Source: Acidobacteriota bacterium
Lineage (GTDB): Bacteria; Acidobacteriota; Holophagae; Holophagales; Holophagaceae
DNA: 11,165 nucleotides
Direction: 5' to 3'
NCBI GenBank assembly: GCA_021778785.1
Contig: JAJYBX010000025.1
Coordinates: 1 to 11,165 of the forward strand
Shown: piece after piece, positions 1,210-9,135 of the stretch
Numbering within the stretch: the stretch's first letter is position 1
Layout of the letters: every line of letters begins with the position of its first letter
Translations under genes and position numbers: made by a program
The notes under the pieces: generated by a model
What the model was told of the DNA's origin: nothing
What the model saw: only the letters and a program-made list of their open reading frames with translations
The model's database searches: none

Positions 1210-1938
1210 TCAGATCCAGCGCCTTCCGCCATCCAGGGTGAGGATCTCGCCGGTGAGGAAGGGGCTGGCGGCGGCATAGCGCACGGCGCGGCAGAGGTCC
1301 GCAGGCTCGCCCAGGCGCTTGAGGAGGGTGCGCTCCGCCAGGAAGGCCTCGTCGCTGCCCTCGGCCGGGAGGATGGCCCCCAGGGCGTGGCCCACGACCC
1401 GCACCCGGGGGGCCAGGACCTGGGCCAGTCCCGGGATCACCGAGGCCAAGCCGCCCTTGGCCGCGCTGTAGGGCAGCCGCTTCAGCCAGGGCTGGTGGAT
1501 GGAGGTGTCCAGCAGGAACTGGAGGCAGGCCCCTTCCGCAAGGCGGGGCGCCAGGGCCTGGGCGCAGAGGAGCGGGAAGCCCAGATTGACCCGCCAGGTG
1601 GCCTCAAGGGCCTGGGAAGTCCAGGATCCGAGGGGCGCTTCGGGGAAGGTACCGGCCACGATCACCGCGCCGGAAATCACCACCCCGGCCGTGTCCAGGG
1701 CCTCCAGATCTGCCATCATGCGGGACACCAGCTCCGGACGCTCCGCATCCCAGTGAAGGGTCCGGATCTGTGTTTTCCTGGACAACCCGGCCAGCCAGTC
1801 CTCGCCCTCCCAGGGGCGGGAACTCGTCAATACCAGGTCGTGGTCCCCGGCGAGATCCTCCGCCAGGGCCCGCCCGAGCCTCCGGCGGCCTCCCACCAGC
1901 ACCCAGCAGGGCCTTTCATTTTCCGCCATCCGCTCCAT
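1210..1938 (-). CDS. Pteridine-reductase-type short-chain dehydrogenase (PTR1/FolM-like)
   Basis: A 242-residue SDR with Rossmann fold. The nucleotide motif is VGGRRRLG (residues 15-22), matching the TGxxxRxG pattern that marks pteridine reductases and NADPH preference, with Thr replaced by Val. The catalytic part reads LDTSIHQPW...YSAAK: Tyr157 and Lys161 form YxxxK. Asp144 lies 13 residues before the Tyr, the spacing recalled for Asp181/Tyr194 of Leishmania PTR1, and the QP after it is shared too. Ordinary SDRs have Ser at this site. The C-terminus (LTGEILTLDGGR) is SDR-typical. The likely role is NADPH-dependent reduction of dihydropterin or dihydrofolate, as in FolM; this is inferred, and no folate genes are in view. 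I chose ATG at 1938 because GGAAG sits 9 bases upstream. ATG at 1929 is the alternative. A longer frame to 1986 would run into the divergent gene. Confidence 0.85.
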   Translation of the reverse strand: MERMAENERPCWVLVGGRRRLGRALAEDLAGDHDLVLTSSRPWEGEDWLAGLSRKTQIRTLHWDAERPELVSRMMADLEALDTAGVVISGAVIVAGTFPEAPLGSWTSQALEATWRVNLGFPLLCAQALAPRLAEGACLQFLLDTSIHQPWLKRLPYSAAKGGLASVIPGLAQVLAPRVRVVGHALGAILPAEGSDEAFLAERTLLKRLGEPADLCRAVRYAAASPFLTGEILTLDGGRRWI

Positions 1939-1963
1939 GCGGGCATTCTTCCACAAAGGTCCC

Positions 1964-4543
1964 ATGAGCCCCACCCTCAAACGCATCCGCTGGCGCCTGC
2001 TCTGGATCAGCCTCGTGGCGCTGGCGTTCTCGCTGGGTTCCTTCTACCTGAACCAGTGGATGTACGCCCGTTCCGACGACCAGTGCTCCTGGATCGTGGA
2101 GAACGTCAAGGGCGAGAAGCGCATTGCCATCCGCGAGATCATGCCGGATGGCGTGGCCGAGGAGGCGGGCCTGCTGGAGGGCGACGAACTGGTGGCCATC
2201 CAGGGGCACCGGTGGGCGCCGACACATGCGGGAACCCTGGAGGCCCAGCGCTTCATCAATTCCCGACGCGAGGGCACGATCCTCATCTACACCGTGAAGC
2301 GCCAGGGCCGCCTGCTCCAGCTGCCCCTCCGGCTGGTGAAGCCCCTCGACCTCCTCCAGCTGGCCCTGCTGCTCAACGGGCTCATCGCCTGGGCCATCGC
2401 CCTGCTCGTGGTGGTCTCAGCCGCCGAGCGCAAGAGCGCCCGCCACTTCTTCTACCTGGCCAGCACGGCGCTGATGCTCTCCGGCATCCGGATCATGGGC
2501 AATGTCCCCGAATCCGTCATGGCCGCCACCATCGTGGCGGGCGGGCTGGTGGCGGCCCTCCTCCCACCCCTCTGGGTGCACTTCTTCCTCCGCTTCCCCC
2601 ATCCCTTCGAGGCACGGAAGAACCGGCGCCTGCTCCGGGCGCTCTACGCCACTTTCGCGGCCATGGCGCTGGTGCTCACCACCTTGACCCTGATCCGCGC
2701 GTTCGGGGAGGGCGCGGCCAAAGCGCTGGGCTTCGACCGCAAGCCGGATCCCTCGGCGCTGCTCGGATTCCTCGCCTTCCTCCTGAACTGGCTGCCCCAG
2801 GTCCTCTACATCGGCGCCGGCATCCTGGGCCTCGGATTCTTCGTGGCGGGCACCCTCCAGGTGGGGGCCCGATTCCGCCGGACCCTCATCCCCAGCCTCC
2901 TGGTCACCGCCGCCATCTGCGCCGATCTGGTGGCCATGATCCTCCTCCAGGCCAAGTTCGGATCCAGCCAGATCTTCAGCCGCCAGAGCTGGATCTTCGC
3001 GGTGCCGCTGCCGCTCCTGCCATTGAGCTTCGCCTACGCCATCTTCCGCCGCGGCCTCTTCGACGTCCGCAAGGCCCTGCTCCGCTGGGTGTCCTACTTC
3101 GCCGTGGTCGGCCTCACCCTGGCCCTCTACCTGGGAGGCCTGGCCTGGGTGTTCTCCCTGAGCCTCAGCGCCATCCCCTCCGGCTGGGCCGGGGCCCTGG
3201 TGGGCCTGCTGGCCCTGCCCCTGGGCTGGAGCCTCCGCTGGTTGCTGCGGGGGATCCGCAGGCAGTTCCGCCGGGACCTCTCCACGGCCCGGGAGACCGC
3301 CCTGGGCGCCATCCGCGAGCCGCGGAAGCGGTTCAGCGAGGAGGCCCTCCTCAAGTCGGTCGCCTCCTCGCTCCGCGAGGCCTTCCGCCCGCAGCTGCTC
3401 GAGGTCCTTCCCGTGGAGGACCGCCGCATCCTCCTGCCCGCGGCGGAGACCCTCGACCGCGAAGACCGCAAGGTGGTCCACCCGCCCCAGTTCCTGAGCC
3501 TGCCGGCGGGCCTCCTGCGCCTCGCCCGGGAGAACCGGGAGCTGGTGCTCGGCCTCGGGAGCGAAGAGGCCGACTGGATCCGCGAGCAGGGGGGGGGGCT
3601 GCGGGAGCATGTCGATGCCCTGGAGGCCCAGCTCCTGGTGCTGCTCATGGCCAGCGATGAACCCCACGCGGCCGTGCTGCTGGGCGGGAAGTACGCCGAG
3701 CTGAACTACGGCCGCGAGGACCGGGAGCTGCTTCGGGAGGTGGCCCTGGCCGCCGGCATGGTGCTGGAGACGGCCATCCTCCACCGGCGGACCCTGGCCC
3801 AGGAGCGGCTGAGCCAGGAACTGGAGACGGCCCGGCGGATCCAGGAGGGCCTCATCACCTCGGAGCCGCCCTCCATCCCCGGCTTCCACGTGGCCCTGCG
3901 CCTGGAGCCGGCCCTGGAGACCGGCGGCGACCTGCTCTTCGTCAAGCGCCGGCCCAGCGGCACTTGGCTGGCGGCCGTGGGCGACGTGTGCGGCAAGGGC
4001 TTGGCCGCGGCCCTCTACATGGCCCAGGCCACCGCCCTGCTGGAGCACGCCACCCAGCGCGAGGACCAGCCCCTGGAGGTCATCCTGCAGTCCATGGACC
4101 ACACGCTGCGCCAGCTCCTGGGCCAGCGGGGCTTCCTCACCCTCGCCCTGCTGGAGTGGGACCTGGAAGGCCGCTACCGGCTGGCCCGCGCCGGCCACCC
4201 GGGGGCCCTGCTGCTGGAGGGGATCACGGAGGACTGCTCGCGCGAGCTGGCCCCTCATGGGCGCGGACTGGGCCTCCGCCCCGCGGGCCCCGGGGACTGG
4301 GAAGTGCTGGAAGGCGTCCTCCCCCCGAAGGGCTGGCTGGTGCTCTACAGCGACGGCCTGTCGGAAGCCATGAGCAAGCAGGGCGAACTCTACGGCGTGC
4401 CGCGGCTATGCGCCCAGCTCCGCCGCCTCTGGGGGATCGGCAGCCCCCGTGCCGCCTGCGAGGCGGTCTTCCGGGACGTGGCCGCCTTCGACGCCCAGAA
4501 CCTGGATGACCGCACCCTGTTTATCCTGGGGAGGGAGGTCTGA
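1964..4543 (+). CDS. Membrane PDZ / multi-TM / SpoIIE-type PP2C phosphatase
   Basis: An 859-residue multidomain regulator. TM1 is about residues 13-30. A PDZ-like domain follows at about 43-115 (IMPDGVAEEAGLLEGDELVAI), probably periplasmic. Several TM helices lie between 128 and 425, with FRRGLFDVRKALLRWVSYF (361-379) resembling the TM-adjacent motif of many multi-TM sensor proteins. A degenerate GAF-like region spans about 450-605, then a helix (QELETARRIQ), then a C-terminal SpoIIE/RsbU phosphatase domain (about 640-859). Metal-site motifs are GGD (Asp656), GDVCGKG (Asp674), YSDG (Asp797) and LDDRT (Asp848/849). The usual GGDxxD has Phe659 in place of the second Asp. Such phosphatases typically dephosphorylate an anti-sigma antagonist; no such partner is in the window. 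The start at 1964 follows AAGG with a short spacer. ATG at 1937 in the same frame lacks a Shine-Dalgarno. A run of ten G lies at 3589-3598. The stop overlaps the next start. Confidence 0.9.
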   Translation: MSPTLKRIRWRLLWISLVALAFSLGSFYLNQWMYARSDDQCSWIVENVKGEKRIAIREIMPDGVAEEAGLLEGDELVAIQGHRWAPTHAGTLEAQRFINSRREGTILIYTVKRQGRLLQLPLRLVKPLDLLQLALLLNGLIAWAIALLVVVSAAERKSARHFFYLASTALMLSGIRIMGNVPESVMAATIVAGGLVAALLPPLWVHFFLRFPHPFEARKNRRLLRALYATFAAMALVLTTLTLIRAFGEGAAKALGFDRKPDPSALLGFLAFLLNWLPQVLYIGAGILGLGFFVAGTLQVGARFRRTLIPSLLVTAAICADLVAMILLQAKFGSSQIFSRQSWIFAVPLPLLPLSFAYAIFRRGLFDVRKALLRWVSYFAVVGLTLALYLGGLAWVFSLSLSAIPSGWAGALVGLLALPLGWSLRWLLRGIRRQFRRDLSTARETALGAIREPRKRFSEEALLKSVASSLREAFRPQLLEVLPVEDRRILLPAAETLDREDRKVVHPPQFLSLPAGLLRLARENRELVLGLGSEEADWIREQGGGLREHVDALEAQLLVLLMASDEPHAAVLLGGKYAELNYGREDRELLREVALAAGMVLETAILHRRTLAQERLSQELETARRIQEGLITSEPPSIPGFHVALRLEPALETGGDLLFVKRRPSGTWLAAVGDVCGKGLAAALYMAQATALLEHATQREDQPLEVILQSMDHTLRQLLGQRGFLTLALLEWDLEGRYRLARAGHPGALLLEGITEDCSRELAPHGRGLGLRPAGPGDWEVLEGVLPPKGWLVLYSDGLSEAMSKQGELYGVPRLCAQLRRLWGIGSPRAACEAVFRDVAAFDAQNLDDRTLFILGREV

Positions 4544-5037
4544 TGCCGCGCCGCTCCGCCTTGAGATGGATCGTGCCCCTGCTCCTGTCGGTCCAGGTCG
4601 GCCTCCTGTGGATCCAGGGAGCCCAGCTCCACCAGCAGAACCGGCAGCTGGGCGACCTCCGGGCCGACATCCAGGATCTGGCCGACAGCCTGGATTCGGG
4701 CCAGGACGACACCACGCTCCAGGACGATACCGGCGCCGTGCCCCTGCGCCACCGCGGCCACCCGCGCCCCCGCCTCCAGCGCGTGGCCGTGCTCGGCCTC
4801 CAGGACGAGAAGGACGCCGCGGCCGAGGAGCTGCGCGCCTCCCGGGACTCCGAGCGGAAGGCCGTGAAGGATGCCCGCGAGGCCCAGGCCAAGATTTCCA
4901 TCGAGGAGAATGCCCGGAAGGCCGAGGAGACCCGGAAGGTCCAGGGCGCCACGGAACGCTGGCAGCGCTGGTCCCTGGCCGCCTTCGGCCTCCTCTGCCT
5001 CGCCTGGCTGGCGCGGGGCTGGTTCCGGCGGCGCTGA
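4543..5037 (+). CDS. Two-TM coiled-coil membrane protein, unknown function
   Basis: I do not recognise a named family. The 164-residue product has a basic N-terminus (MPRRSALR), TM1 at about 10-25, heptad-like helix at 26-60 rich in Gln/Leu/Asp, a basic Pro-rich break (about 66-78), a long charged helix at 87-138 rich in Glu/Lys/Arg/Ala, TM2 at about 143-158, and a terminal RRR. The positive-inside rule predicts both ends in the cytoplasm and the coiled coil outside. ATG overlaps the phosphatase TGA (TGATG at 4541-4545) and has GGAGG shortly upstream (GGGAGGGAGG stretch). Its own TGA overlaps the next ATG in the same way (5035-5039). This double coupling supports a real gene whose product is made with both neighbours. 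It could be a structural or sensing partner of the phosphatase, which also has an extracytoplasmic PDZ; this is inference. Confidence 0.75.
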   Translation: MPRRSALRWIVPLLLSVQVGLLWIQGAQLHQQNRQLGDLRADIQDLADSLDSGQDDTTLQDDTGAVPLRHRGHPRPRLQRVAVLGLQDEKDAAAEELRASRDSERKAVKDAREAQAKISIEENARKAEETRKVQGATERWQRWSLAAFGLLCLAWLARGWFRRR

Positions 5038-5831
5038 TGTCCCTGCTGGAGTATCTCCGCGCGGATCCGGACTGCCGGAACCTCGCGGAGGGCGCGGTCC
5101 ACGCCGTCTCCCCGGCGCTGGAGGACCCGGATCCAGCGACGGTGCTCGAGCAGCTGGATGAATGGGCCTTCCTCCTGGCGGGGCGCATGCCGCTGCCCTG
5201 GAACCTCCATCAGGCCATCGACGCCCTCCACCACCTGCTGTTCCAGGAGCTGGGCTTCCAGGGGGACCGCGATACCTACGATGCCCCGGAGAACGCCCTG
5301 CTGCCCCAGGTGGTGGCGCGCCGCAAGGGCCTCCCCATCGCCCTCTCCATCCTGTGGATCGACCTGGCCCGCCGCCTGGGCTTCGACGCCGTGGGCGTGG
5401 GCCTGCCGGGCCACTTCATCACGGGGATCCGCACGGACCTCGGCCTGTTGTGCTTCGATCCCTTCAACGGCGGCCGTCCCGTGGGCGCGGAGCGGGGCTC
5501 CGAGATTGTCGCCGCGGCCACGGGCGGCAAGGTCGCCTTCCATCCCGCCATGCTGCGTCCCGTGGCGGACCGCCAGATCCTGGCGCGGCTGGTGCGGAAC
5601 CTCCATCTCCGCTACCTGCACGCGGAGTCCTGGGAGGAGGCGCTGTGGACCGGCACCCACCTCATCCTCCTGGAGCCCTCGAACCCCCGTCCCCGGAAGG
5701 AGCGGGCCTTCGTCCACCTGCAGCGGGGCGAGCCCGGCCCGGCCCTGGCGGATCTCCAGGAAGCCCTCCGGCTCAGCCCCGAACCCGATCCCGAGATCCA
5801 GGCCTGGATGCAGCAGCTGCGCCAGGGATAG
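5037..5831 (+). CDS. SirB1/YchA family protein (transglutaminase-like fold, C-terminal TPR)
   Basis: A 264-residue soluble protein, close in length to E. coli YchA/SirB1. The transglutaminase-like core 2 domain spans about 35-185: YDAPENALLPQVVARRKGLP (81-100), then IALSILW, GLPGHFITG with His126, and CFDPFNGG with Asp141. His and Asp of a papain/transglutaminase triad are present, but the place where a catalytic Cys would be expected (around Ser104) has none. A helical, TPR-like tail follows: about 195-215 and 222-247, RGEPGPALADLQEALRLSP. The biochemical role of SirB1 proteins is not established. ATG overlaps the upstream TGA (TGATG), so translation is probably coupled to the coiled-coil gene. 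The gene ends 11 bp from the stop of the convergent DUF302 gene. Confidence 0.88.
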   Translation: MSLLEYLRADPDCRNLAEGAVHAVSPALEDPDPATVLEQLDEWAFLLAGRMPLPWNLHQAIDALHHLLFQELGFQGDRDTYDAPENALLPQVVARRKGLPIALSILWIDLARRLGFDAVGVGLPGHFITGIRTDLGLLCFDPFNGGRPVGAERGSEIVAAATGGKVAFHPAMLRPVADRQILARLVRNLHLRYLHAESWEEALWTGTHLILLEPSNPRPRKERAFVHLQRGEPGPALADLQEALRLSPEPDPEIQAWMQQLRQG

Positions 5832-5842
5832 GTGTTCCCACC

Positions 5843-6226
5843 TCAGCGGGCCGCGTCCACCATGCCGACGAGCGCCGCTTCCACCTCGGCGGCCACGGGC
5901 CGCAGGGCCTCGTCCTGCGTGAGCCCCGCCAGCATCTCCGCCGGCAGGATCAGGCCGATCCGGGTGCGTCCCTGCTCGGTGTAGACCGAGATCCGACAGG
6001 GCAGCGCCATGTTCAGGCGCAGGTCCCGGGCGAGCACCTTGGCCGCCTGCAAGGGATTGCAGACCTCGAAGATCCGGCACTGCTCGGTGAAGGGCTGCCC
6101 CTTGCTCCTCAGAGTGTTCCCCAGGTCGTGGACGTACAGGACTCCGAAACCGCCGGCCTTGACCGCCGCCTCAAGGTCCGCGGCCGCCTGCTCGAAGGGT
6201 TTGCCCGATTCGACGATGTGGTACAT
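5843..6226 (-). CDS. DUF302 domain protein
   Basis: A 127-residue single-domain protein. DUF302 signatures are IFEVCNPLQAAKVLARDLRL (residues 52-71) and LPCRISVYTEQGRTRIGLI (75-93), with the final helix cluster holding the MVDAAR end. Cysteines 50, 56 and 77 are present; Cys56 and Cys77 sit at the family's conserved CNP and PCR positions. DUF302 proteins have a TT1751-like fold and no proven activity; the cysteines make a redox or ligand-binding role conceivable. No signal peptide or TM is visible. The ATG at 6226 has GGAGG six bases upstream, so the start is well supported. It lies 45 bp downstream of the PYP-like gene on the same strand, and so may be cotranscribed with it. Confidence 0.85.
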   Translation of the reverse strand: MYHIVESGKPFEQAAADLEAAVKAGGFGVLYVHDLGNTLRSKGQPFTEQCRIFEVCNPLQAAKVLARDLRLNMALPCRISVYTEQGRTRIGLILPAEMLAGLTQDEALRPVAAEVEAALVGMVDAAR

Positions 6227-6271
6227 GACGGGCCTCCAGGGCCCCCATGATACCGGCCGGGCCCGGTCCCC

Positions 6272-6706
6272 TCACCCCAGCTTGCGGACCACCACCACGA
6301 CTCCGACCTCCTTGTGGAGGAAGAGGATCTGGACTTTCACGGGACCCGCAGGGAAGCGGAAGGTGAACTGGAACGTCCGCGAGGGTTCCGGACCATGGCA
6401 GAAGGCCGCGAACTGGCCCTGGAACGCCTGCACGGAGGTGCAGGGCGCCACCTCGGTGAAGAAATTCCGGCCGATCACGTCCTGGGACCGGCGGCCCGCC
6501 AGTTCCTCCTCCGCCCGGTTGTAGGCCAGCACCGTCCCATCCCCGGCAAGGACGATCACCCCGAAGGGGAGTTCGTCCAATTCGGCTTCCGAGAGGTCCG
6601 GTATGCCCCGGAGGCGGCGATAGCAGGCGAGGCAGATGCCATGGGAGTGCTCGATCCCACCGTCCCGGATCCAGGCCCCGCACCAGGCACAGAGCACATC
6701 CGCCAT
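6272..6706 (-). CDS. Photoactive-yellow-protein-like PAS protein with N-terminal zinc knuckle
   Basis: A 144-residue protein. Residues 6-28 form CxxC-x15-CxxC (CAWC...SHGICLAC, with His20 and His22), a zinc-knuckle pattern seen at the ends of some sensor proteins. Residues 39-143 form a PAS domain of the PYP type. Aligned by hand to the Halorhodospira PYP sequence from memory, the core needs no gap and has a constant offset of 20: Tyr62=Tyr42, Glu66=Glu46, Arg72=Arg52, Cys89=Cys69 (the chromophore cysteine), within VIGRNFFTEVAPCTS. Differences are Ala70 for Thr50, Phe118 for Tyr98 and Ala120 for Met100. PYP binds p-coumaric acid through the Cys as a blue-light sensor. Whether this one binds it is unknown, since no tyrosine ammonia-lyase or coumarate ligase gene is in view. 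ATG at 6706 has GGAG five bases upstream. Confidence 0.88.
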   Translation of the reverse strand: MADVLCAWCGAWIRDGGIEHSHGICLACYRRLRGIPDLSEAELDELPFGVIVLAGDGTVLAYNRAEEELAGRRSQDVIGRNFFTEVAPCTSVQAFQGQFAAFCHGPEPSRTFQFTFRFPAGPVKVQILFLHKEVGVVVVVRKLG

Positions 6707-6742
6707 CAGGACTCCGTTCGGATCATTCCCCCCAGCATAGCA

Positions 6743-6764
6743 GCGGGGGCCCGGAGGCCCCCGC
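6743..6764 (-). terminator. Hairpin behind maeB
   Basis: A perfect 9-bp stem, GCGGGGGCC / GGCCCCCGC, with a CGGA loop, lies about 20 bp past the maeB stop and about 36 bp before the PYP-like gene start. No T-run follows on either strand, so it is either a GC-rich terminator without a U-tract or an mRNA 3'-end stabiliser. It suggests that the PYP-like gene is not simply part of the maeB transcript. Confidence 0.5.
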
Positions 6765-6784
6765 CGACGTCCGATGGTTGACCG

Positions 6785-9037
6785 CTACTTCTTCTGCGCC
6801 TCCACGACCGTGAGGGCCGTGAGGTGGACGATGTCGTTCAGGTCGCTGTGCCGCTGCAGCACGTGCACCGGGGCGGCCATGCCGCAGGTGATGGGCCCGA
6901 TCACCTCCGCGCCCGCCAGCCGCTGCACCAGCTTGTAGCCGATGTTGCCGCTGGTGAGGTCGGGGAAGATCAGCACGTTCGGCCCACCCGGCATATCCAC
7001 CCAGGGATAGTCCTCGGCCAGGATGTCCGCGCCCAGGGCGGTATCGGCCTGCATCTCGCCGTCGCACTTCAGGTCCGGCCGCTGGGCCTTCACGATCTGG
7101 ACGGCCTTCTGCACCTTGCGGACCAGCGGATGTTCGACGCTCCCGAAATCGGAGAAGGAGAGCATGGCGACCTGGGGATCCATGTTGAAGGTGTCCTTGG
7201 CCAGATCGGCCGTGAGGAGGGCGATCTCGGCCAGCTCCTCGCTGCTGGGCTCGATGTTCATGGTCGTGTCGGAGAAGAACAGGACGCGGTTCTTCAGCAC
7301 CATGGTGTAGACGCCACAGACGCGCTTGACGCCCTTGCGGGTGCCGATCACTTCGAGGCAGGGCCGGATGGTCTCGGGGTAGTACATCGTCAGGCCGGCG
7401 ATGAGGCCATCGGCCTTGCCCAGGCGGCACATCATGGCCCCGAAGTAGATCCGGCGGCGGATCAGGCGCTTGGCCTCGGAGTGCGTGACGCCCCGGCGCT
7501 TGCGGATGTCGAAGAAGGCGTCCTCCGCCTCCTGGCGCCAGGACACGGCCCCGGGATCCAGGATCTCCATGCCGCTGACATCGATGCCGCGGTCCATGGC
7601 CACGGACTTGATCCGGTCCGGATCGCCCAGGAGGATGGGGATGCAGATGCCTTCGTCCACCATCTGGGCCACGGCCTGGAGGATCAGGGGATGGTCGCCC
7701 TCGGGGAAGACCACCCGCTTGGGGTTCGACTTCGCCCGGTTCACGACGCTGCGGATGACATCCTTGCTGCGGCCCTGGAGGCCCTCGAGGCGCTCCTTGT
7801 ACTGCTGCATGTCGGCGATGGGCTGCTTGGCCACGCCCGTGTCCATGGCGGCCTTGGCCACGGCGGGGGCGACCCACAGGAGCACGCGGGGATCGAAGGG
7901 CTTGGGGATGATGTATTCGGGGCCGAAACTGAACTTCTGGCCGGCGTAGGCCTTGACCACCGATTCCGGCACCTCCTCCTTCGCCAGGGCGGCCAGCGCC
8001 TTGGCGGCGGCGAGCTTCATGGGCTCGTTGATCTCCGTGGCGCGCACGTCCAGGGCGCCGCGGAAGATGAAGGGGAAGCCCAGGACGTTGTTCACCTGGT
8101 TCGGGTAGTCGCTGCGGCCCGTGGCCATGATGATGTCGGACCGGGTGGCCTTGGCCAGGGGGTAGTCGATCTCGGGATCGGGGTTGGCCAGGGCGAAGAC
8201 GATGGGGTCCTTCGCCATGCTCTTGACCATCTCGGGGGTCAGCGCGCCCTTGCTGGAGCAGCCCACGAACACGTCCGCGCCCACGATGGTGTCGGCCAGG
8301 GTGCGCCAGTCGCTCGGCTTGGCGAAGCGCTCCTTGTAGACGTTCATGCCCTCCTTGCGGCCGGTGTAGACCAGGCCCTTGGTGTCGCAGAGCCAGAGGT
8401 TCTCCAGCTTGACGCCCGCGCTCACCATCATGTTGGCGCAGGCGATGGCGGAGGCGCCGGCACCGCTGAACACCACCTTCATGTCGCCGAGCTTCTTGCC
8501 CACGACCTCCGAGGCGTTCATCAGCGCCGCGGTGCTGATGATGGCCGTCCCGTGCTGGTCGTCATGGAAGACGGGGATGTTCATCTCCTTCTTCAGGCGG
8601 GTCTCGATCTCGAAGCACTCGGGGGCCTTGATGTCCTCCAGGTTGATGCCGCCGAAGGTGGGTTCCAGGGCCTTCACCACCTGGCAGAACCGGTCGATGT
8701 CCTTCTCGTCCACCTCGATGTCGAACACGTCGATGTCCGCGAACCGCTTGAACAGGACACCCTTGCCCTCCATCACCGGCTTGCCGGCGAGGGCGCCGAT
8801 GTCACCCAGGCCCAGCACGGCGGTGCCGTTGGAGATGACGGCCACCAGGTTGCCCTTGGCCGTGTACTTGTAGGCGTCCTCGGGGTTCTTCTCGATCTCG
8901 AGGCAGGGCTCGGCCACGCCGGGGGAGTAGGCCAGGGAGAGATCCCGAGCGGTGGAACAGGGCTTGGTGGCCACCACCTCGATCTTTCCCTTCCGACCCT
9001 GGGAATGGTAGTCGAGGGCTTCCTGCTTGCGTTTCAT
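6785..9037 (-). CDS. maeB: NADP-dependent malic enzyme with phosphotransacetylase domain (MaeB type)
   Basis: A 750-residue cytoplasmic enzyme, near E. coli MaeB in length. It oxidatively decarboxylates malate to pyruvate and CO2 with NAD(P) reduction. The malic N domain (about 15-150) has [11 protein letters not shown] with Tyr37, [18 protein letters not shown], and [12 protein letters not shown] with metal-site Glu134/Asp135. [12 protein letters not shown] (155-166) supplies another metal Asp. The NAD(P) Rossmann domain follows with [10 protein letters not shown] (190-199). The second half (about 425-750) is a phosphotransacetylase-like domain: [34 protein letters not shown], and [12 protein letters not shown] at the end. 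In MaeB this domain is known to be regulatory, binding acetyl-CoA, rather than catalytic. I chose ATG at 9037 because AGGAG lies 7 bases upstream. ATG at 9043 is too close to it and 9082 has no support. No frameshift or truncation is seen. Confidence 0.96.
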
Positions 9038-9044
9038 CGCCATT

Positions 9045-9050
9045 CTCCTC
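9045..9050 (-). promoter_or_regulatory. Shine-Dalgarno deciding the maeB start
   Basis: On the minus strand the mRNA reads GAGGAG-A-ATG-GCG-ATG. The AGGAG core is 1 base from the ATG at 9043 but 7 bases from the ATG at 9037. The normal spacing therefore favours 9037 as the start codon. Confidence 0.65.
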
Positions 9051-9135
9051 GCTGTTGGGGGGCCCTTCCGGGCTGGACCCACAGCTTACACCGCGCCTCA
9101 GGGGATCCTGCCTGCCAGGTCATCAATCCCTGGAT

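Follow-up and report, generated by a model that had tools for sequence, protein, structure and literature searches.

The window analysed here, a stretch of 11,165 nucleotides (contig JAJYBX010000025.1), comes from a bacterium related to Geothrix that carries a true relative of photoactive yellow protein (PYP) with its dye-binding pocket intact. The most distinctive part of this protein is a short N-terminal head with four cysteines, which probably bind zinc. We favour, with somewhat better than even confidence, the reading that this headed PYP holds a p-coumarate-type chromophore, senses blue light and relays the resulting change through its head to a partner protein. The features of the window and one related site are collected in Table 1.

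Table 1. Positions of the headed PYP gene (pyp), its residues and its neighbours in the window, and of one interrupted site in a related genome
Feature	Position	Strand	Basis or remark
Headed PYP gene	6272..6706	minus	ATG start, 144 aa; profile, PDB and homologue matches
PYP-type PAS domain	6275..6598	minus	residues 37-144
N-terminal cysteine head, four-Cys, probably zinc	6608..6706	minus	residues 1-33; Cys invariance and model
First CxxC (CAWC)	6680..6691	minus	residues 6-9; alignment of relatives
Second CxxC (CLAC), SHGI just before	6623..6634	minus	residues 25-28; alignment of relatives
Tyr62 (PYP Tyr42)	6521..6523	minus	Tyr 117/121, Phe 4/121 among matches listed
Glu66 (PYP Glu46)	6509..6511	minus	121/121 among matches listed
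Arg72 (PYP Arg52)	6491..6493	minus	Arg 69/121 among matches listed
Cys89 (PYP Cys69), predicted chromophore thioester site	6440..6442	minus	121/121 among matches listed; 92/92 with PYP-part query
DUF302 protein, 45 bases downstream of pyp	5843..6226	minus	PF03625, E 4.9e-16; possible neighbour
Malic enzyme/phosphotransacetylase gene	6785..9082	minus	upstream syntenic flank
Transglutaminase-like/TPR gene	5034..5831	plus	other syntenic flank; PF13369, E 2.1e-41
Headed pyp ends around a run of N, usual site, L187 (G016:C17)	about 3616-3825		

The translation of the gene contains VIGRNFFTEVAPCT, YNRAE and GRR, and in an alignment with PYP chains from the PDB its Tyr62, Glu66, Arg72 and Cys89 fall on PYP Tyr42, Glu46, Arg52 and Cys69, an offset of 20. 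In a profile search TIGR02373 (photo_yellow) matched the protein with an E value of 7.4e-29; the score of 100.4 bits is below the cut-off of 143.05 bits of this narrow equivalog model, and Pfam assigned generic PAS families only. According to PMC9664959, TIGR02373 recovers 20% of PYPs, Pfam splits true PYPs between PAS and PAS_4, and the family is defined by Cys69, where Cys89 aligns; Tyr62 and Glu66 likewise occupy the places of Tyr42 and Glu46. PYPs or PYP-derived chains were the top 33 of 39 PDB sequence matches at E≤1 (best 1mzu, E 2.7e-22), and PYPs took the top 39 Foldseek rows and the top 37 VIA rows for the predicted fold. Both sequence and fold are nearer to PYP than to other PAS domains. 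Judged by its sequence and predicted fold, the window protein is a genuine PYP-family domain, and the initial annotation, which had called it PYP-like with an intact chromophore site and had named a best match to other PAS families as grounds for refutation, is borne out by the reading frame, the motifs, the offset and the matches to PYPs. The gene is under purifying selection, with a median dN/dS of 0.22 (0.13–0.34) over 55 pairs drawn from 11 of the 14 closest genes (the other three were missed by the start-site pattern). The protein has the fold, Cys69, Tyr42, Glu46 and Arg52 in common with Halorhodospira halophila PYP and the PYP domain of Rhodospirillum centenum Ppr (1mzu_A, 43% identity over 103 residues); it differs from them in its cysteine head, which replaces the first residues, in its Ala50, Phe98 and Ala100, and in a genome in which neither a tyrosine ammonia-lyase (TAL) nor a PYP-type p-coumarate-CoA ligase (pCL) was detected.

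A protein search with the headed PYP returned 330 homologues at E≤0.001. Counts out of 121 refer to proteins P0002–P0122, from a listing of the best 120 of these 330; since the query was headed and the best 120 are listed, the count of heads is skewed toward headed relatives, and the word filter of the search favours the conserved Cys69 motif. The PYP part alone as query found 92 proteins, of which all 92 have Cys69 and Glu46 and 62 the full head pattern, with a few more heads broken or cut. The chromophore cysteine, whose loss in close relatives the initial annotation had raised as an objection, is thus kept in 121/121 of the matches listed, in 92/92 with the PYP-part query and in 19/19 headed genes of the bacterial family. 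Arg72, by the same alignments, is no conserved pocket element. The substitutions Thr50 to Ala, Tyr98 to Phe and Met100 to Ala, as originally noted, are correct in the alignment with PYP chains. Position 98 is Phe in 110/121 of the matches listed and also in 1mzu, and position 100 is variable among the matches listed; Ala50 is described as the family consensus, and PYPs that carry it as absorbing at 435–465 nm (PMC12826048).

The head had been missed at the initial reading of the sequence. It spans residues 6–28 with the pattern CxxC...SHGICxxC (here CAWC ... SHGICLAC), and its four cysteines (C6, C9, C25 and C28) are, along with Glu66 and Cys89, invariant in 77/77 aligned relatives, a hand-picked diverse subset of P0002–P0122 from which visibly truncated proteins were excluded. 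Among the 121 listed matches Cys6 is present in 117 (4 gaps), Cys9 in 116 (1 Arg, 4 gaps), Cys25 in 120 (1 Arg) and Cys28 in 121, and several of the exceptions are proteins that start inside the head. Of these 121 proteins, 101 have His and 18 have Tyr at position 22, so His22 is no required ligand. The last head cysteine lies 61 residues from Cys69 in most proteins and 64 or 66 in distant relatives (no spacing was taken for P0039, P0040 and P0058, where the pattern caught a head cysteine, nor for proteins without the head pattern); head and spacing are retained across 42–90% identity. In the structure model a hairpin is followed by a helix at 26–33, with a pLDDT of 60–70 over residues 1–30, and at that confidence the secondary structure would be compatible with a treble-clef-like finger (knuckle, beta hairpin and second ligand pair at the helix start). 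The head is probably a zinc finger; rubredoxin-like iron in place of zinc is possible. A search of the head against PDB sequences gave four chance-level matches, none below E 0.5. Since model residues 24–143 superpose on PYP 7–125 in most rows and the helix starts at 26, the head would be joined to the PYP N-terminal cap. It is this cap that loosens and moves when PYP is illuminated.

Similar heads occur in other proteins. At E≤0.1 a profile built from 30 heads had matches, many of them partial, in 75 of the 93 genomes of the class, and a single-sequence search of the window's genome with the head found only itself. Fourteen loci were picked by hand from the profile matches for reading. Ten of them carry a 37-residue form, mostly CxxCKKIRDD...SHGICPxC, near the C terminus; the module has no Pfam name and ends sensor-like proteins in the way expected of an output part. 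It resembles the head of the headed PYP in its two CxxC pairs and SHGIC but is 37 residues long, not 23, and lies C-terminally in membrane or Reg_prop sensors, with no PYP. Two of these modules are in the window's own genome: for L175 (G000:C280) Pfam gives Reg_prop and Y_Y_Y repeats and, up to E 0.1, no kinase, and for L176 (G000:C99) it gives no match. L178 and L183 among the 14, as well as L106, combine a head with a following PAS domain that lacks the PYP pocket, and L179 and L182 are very short proteins. The small head-PAS proteins (L178/P0152, L183, L106 and P0153–P0155) belong to the Geothrix group and, like the headed PYP, join an N-terminal CxxC...SHGICxxC-type head to a PAS domain; unlike it, they lack the PYP pocket, and their PAS part has an additional cluster of cysteines. 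A search with the L178 protein found four relatives, including itself.

Within the bacterial family, 26 of the 77 genomes have a match at E≤1e-6: 18 with headed PYPs (19 genes), six with headless ones and two with weak matches that lack the pocket, one of which is a head-PAS protein. All 19 headed genes keep Tyr42, Glu46, Cys69 and the four head cysteines. The head pattern was also found at 5 of 80 genomic loci (Geothrix rubra, another Acidobacteriota bacterium, two Gemmatimonadota and one Planctomycetota). The G. rubra orthologue shares 92% identity with the window protein. Other Holophagaceae have headless fusions with the PYP pocket, namely an EAL-PYP (L100), a PYP-histidine kinase (L103) and a PYP with a V4R-resembling C-terminal part (L105), domain labels that come from reading the sequences by eye; these long proteins have no cysteine head and add an output part or a second sensor part. 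In 13 of the 14 closest genomes (the exception is G024) pyp lies between the malic-enzyme and transglutaminase-like genes. Among 16 regions compared at that site from genomes without pyp, the flanks are about 50–120 bases apart in seven and 320–700 bases apart in seven, the two flank genes are not both seen in one, and in G016 a run of N lies between pyp ends. Thus pyp is an accessory gene; it is missing from many genomes of the genus. The G016 site was rejected as a degraded pyp, since the run of N separates two matching ends, and this genome may well carry the gene though it was counted as negative in the 77-genome survey. The DUF302 gene adjoins pyp in some genomes only and in either order; the neighbours of pyp in the closest genomes and the window point to no partner protein, and a scan of 5700–6900 for promoters and terminators found none.

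How the chromophore would be supplied bears directly on function. The biosynthesis genes that the initial annotation had pointed to, TAL and a PYP-type pCL, were looked for in the window's genome (80% complete) and not found. The single PF00221 lyase there is over the hutH cut-off (625 versus 539 bits, an NCBIfam test that covered this lyase only) and has a Ser-His pair, which we take to be of the histidine ammonia-lyase type; it was rejected as a TAL on these grounds. PF00221 has exactly one match in 17 of the 18 headed genomes and none in G024 (72% complete); 16 of the 17 lyases score 600–617 bits, the window's 606, and that of G025 is a fragment, while second lyases in seven other genomes score 513–533 bits. 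At E≤1e-10 a profile built from four ligases encoded beside pyp in other bacteria matched nothing in the window's genome, where generic CoA ligases may remain; its scores did not exceed 48 bits in the headed genomes but were 102–128 bits in seven g7/g9 genomes. A second aromatic lyase beside a PYP-ligase-like gene was seen in G060, G061, G062, G065, G066, G069 and G070. The lyase and ligase of genera g7 and g9 were rejected as a proven PYP pathway because the pair is also present in G061 and G066, which gave no PYP match, so it may serve another pathway, which we presume could be that of an aryl-polyene pigment.

Of 75 headless loci, 38 show a ligase close to pyp and 18 a lyase; the 21 distinct headed loci, some of which lie on short contigs, show neither (24 labelled headed, less the headless L138, with two pairs forming one contig each). 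The absence of a nearby pCL was nevertheless rejected as a mark of headed PYPs, since headless Acidobacteriota, Myxococcota and Eremiobacterota loci are also without one, as they are without a lyase. In whole-genome controls V. boliviensis has two lyases and a 597-bit ligase, and Falsiroseomonas, with a headless PYP, has a single lyase and a ligase at 389 bits. Each of four headed genomes, those of two Gemmatimonadota, one Planctomycetota and the source of L003, has one lyase, and none has a ligase match above 47 bits. PMC12826048 reports TAL in 5% of pyp operons and pCL in 32%, and proposes that the chromophore may come from uptake or from other enzymes; according to PMC9664959, histidine and phenylalanine lyases are possible sources. 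By these frequencies missing genes are common and are no proof that p-coumarate is absent; they leave p-coumarate or another ligand as candidates.

Blue-light sensing with p-coumarate is, we infer, the likeliest function of the headed PYP, and chromophore binding, metal, light response, relay and partner are all to be understood as inferred parts of it. Cys89 would most likely carry p-coumarate or a close hydroxycinnamate in thioester linkage, with Tyr62 and Glu66 as hydrogen-bond partners of this ligand. Under blue light the ligand would isomerise and thereby loosen the N-terminal cap, as in known PYPs, and the head, whose last helix is predicted to overlie the cap, would hand the change to a partner protein. 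The profile, PDB and fold matches, the kept Cys69 and Glu46, the invariant head cysteines with their near-constant spacing, the dN/dS value, the helix on the cap and the head module that ends sensor proteins all argue for this reading. Against it stand the failure to find TAL and a PYP-type pCL in the window's genome and in headed relatives, the unconserved Arg52, the TIGR02373 score, the pLDDT of the head, the lack of a named partner and the absence of the gene from many genomes of the genus. The initial annotation had left a choice between a blue-light sensor in an unexpected lineage and a relative that keeps the pocket for another ligand; family and pocket stand, the novelty of the lineage mostly does not, and the ligand may be p-coumarate or another.

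The second of these, in which the pocket holds another thioester-linked or reactive ligand or is empty and the protein senses a metabolite or redox state through the head cysteines and Cys89, is possible, if clearly less probable. It would explain why five cysteines are invariant together, and why chromophore enzymes were not found in headed genomes of three phyla when V. boliviensis, searched likewise, yielded both kinds; however, the residues that p-coumarate requires (Tyr42, Glu46, Cys69) are all retained, the operon frequencies cited above are low for PYPs at large, and the Falsiroseomonas genome has no second lyase, nor headless Acidobacteriota and Myxococcota loci a nearby pCL. We think it improbable that the protein is an ordinary PYP in which the head serves as a structural cap at the N terminus, without a signalling role: the model does put the head in place of the PYP cap, and headless PYPs work without it, but conservation of head and spacing down to 42% identity and its occurrence as a separate module in other signalling proteins argue otherwise. 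Finally, a common PAS domain that merely resembles PYP would account for the Pfam result and the low TIGR02373 score; true PYPs fare similarly with both, PYPs head the PDB, Foldseek and VIA rows, and headed proteins mix with PYPs in trees, and we give this reading hardly any credence.

In those trees headed proteins and PYPs intermingle. A 139-row tree needs 6 changes of the head label, versus 43–44 in shuffles, and some of the 6 are cut gene calls. A more careful tree (51 rows, about 115 columns, four cut rows removed) places the classical headless PYPs, 23 of 28 headless rows, in one starred group (98/86), surrounded by headed rows and a headless side group; the other five headless rows, from Myxococcota, Eremiobacterota kin and one Acidobacteriota, lie apart from it amid headed ones, and a single headed clade is allowed (p-AU 0.354). 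When rooted with head-PAS or with ordinary PAS outgroups, the tree has its root outside the classical group, on very long outgroup branches, and in one of the two rootings the three outgroup rows do not group together. The sample was gathered by likeness to the headed query and has no row named Leptospira, Salinibacter or Burkholderia; the root evidence is suggestive at most. The placement of the classical group, the outgroup roots and the non-PYP head-PAS proteins in the same genus could be read to mean that headed PYPs are the older form, that PYP arose from a small zinc-head-PAS signalling protein whose head was a light-gated output, and that the classical PYPs (H. halophila, Ppr and kin) lost the head later; we regard this as rather unlikely.

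Salinibacter and Leptospira are non-phototrophs. Characterised PYPs from both are named in PMC9664959, which lists Acidobacteria with fewer than five genomes; Acidobacteriota make up 2.4% of 984 PYPs in PMC12826048, so the lineage alone is not new and the earlier claim that it was unexpected mostly falls. The abstract of PMC12826048 calls the handing-on of the PYP signal an important gap, and the part of that paper available describes fusions to phytochrome, kinase, GGDEF/EAL, V4R, REC and MCP and no cysteine head. The word zinc is absent from the main texts of PMC12826048 and PMC9664959, whose supplements may hold headed PYPs, and among literature titles and abstract starts none concerned a zinc-finger PYP, PYP with Geothrix, or SHGICP; by these negatives the headed architecture appears to be new in print. 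A conserved module on the moving part of PYP is a concrete place to seek a partner, and Geothrix has named strains (Geothrix rubra Red803) in which to study it. A pocket kept without dedicated enzymes also makes it testable whether PYPs live on scavenged p-coumarate or carry another ligand. Elsewhere in the window, positions 1937–4543 encode an 868-residue protein, syntenic in the genus, with a SpoIIE phosphatase domain and a PDZ-like stretch below the Pfam cut-off, and in G024 an open reading frame four genes from the headed pyp (L131, about 1208–2608) has a start that, read by eye, resembles DNA photolyase.
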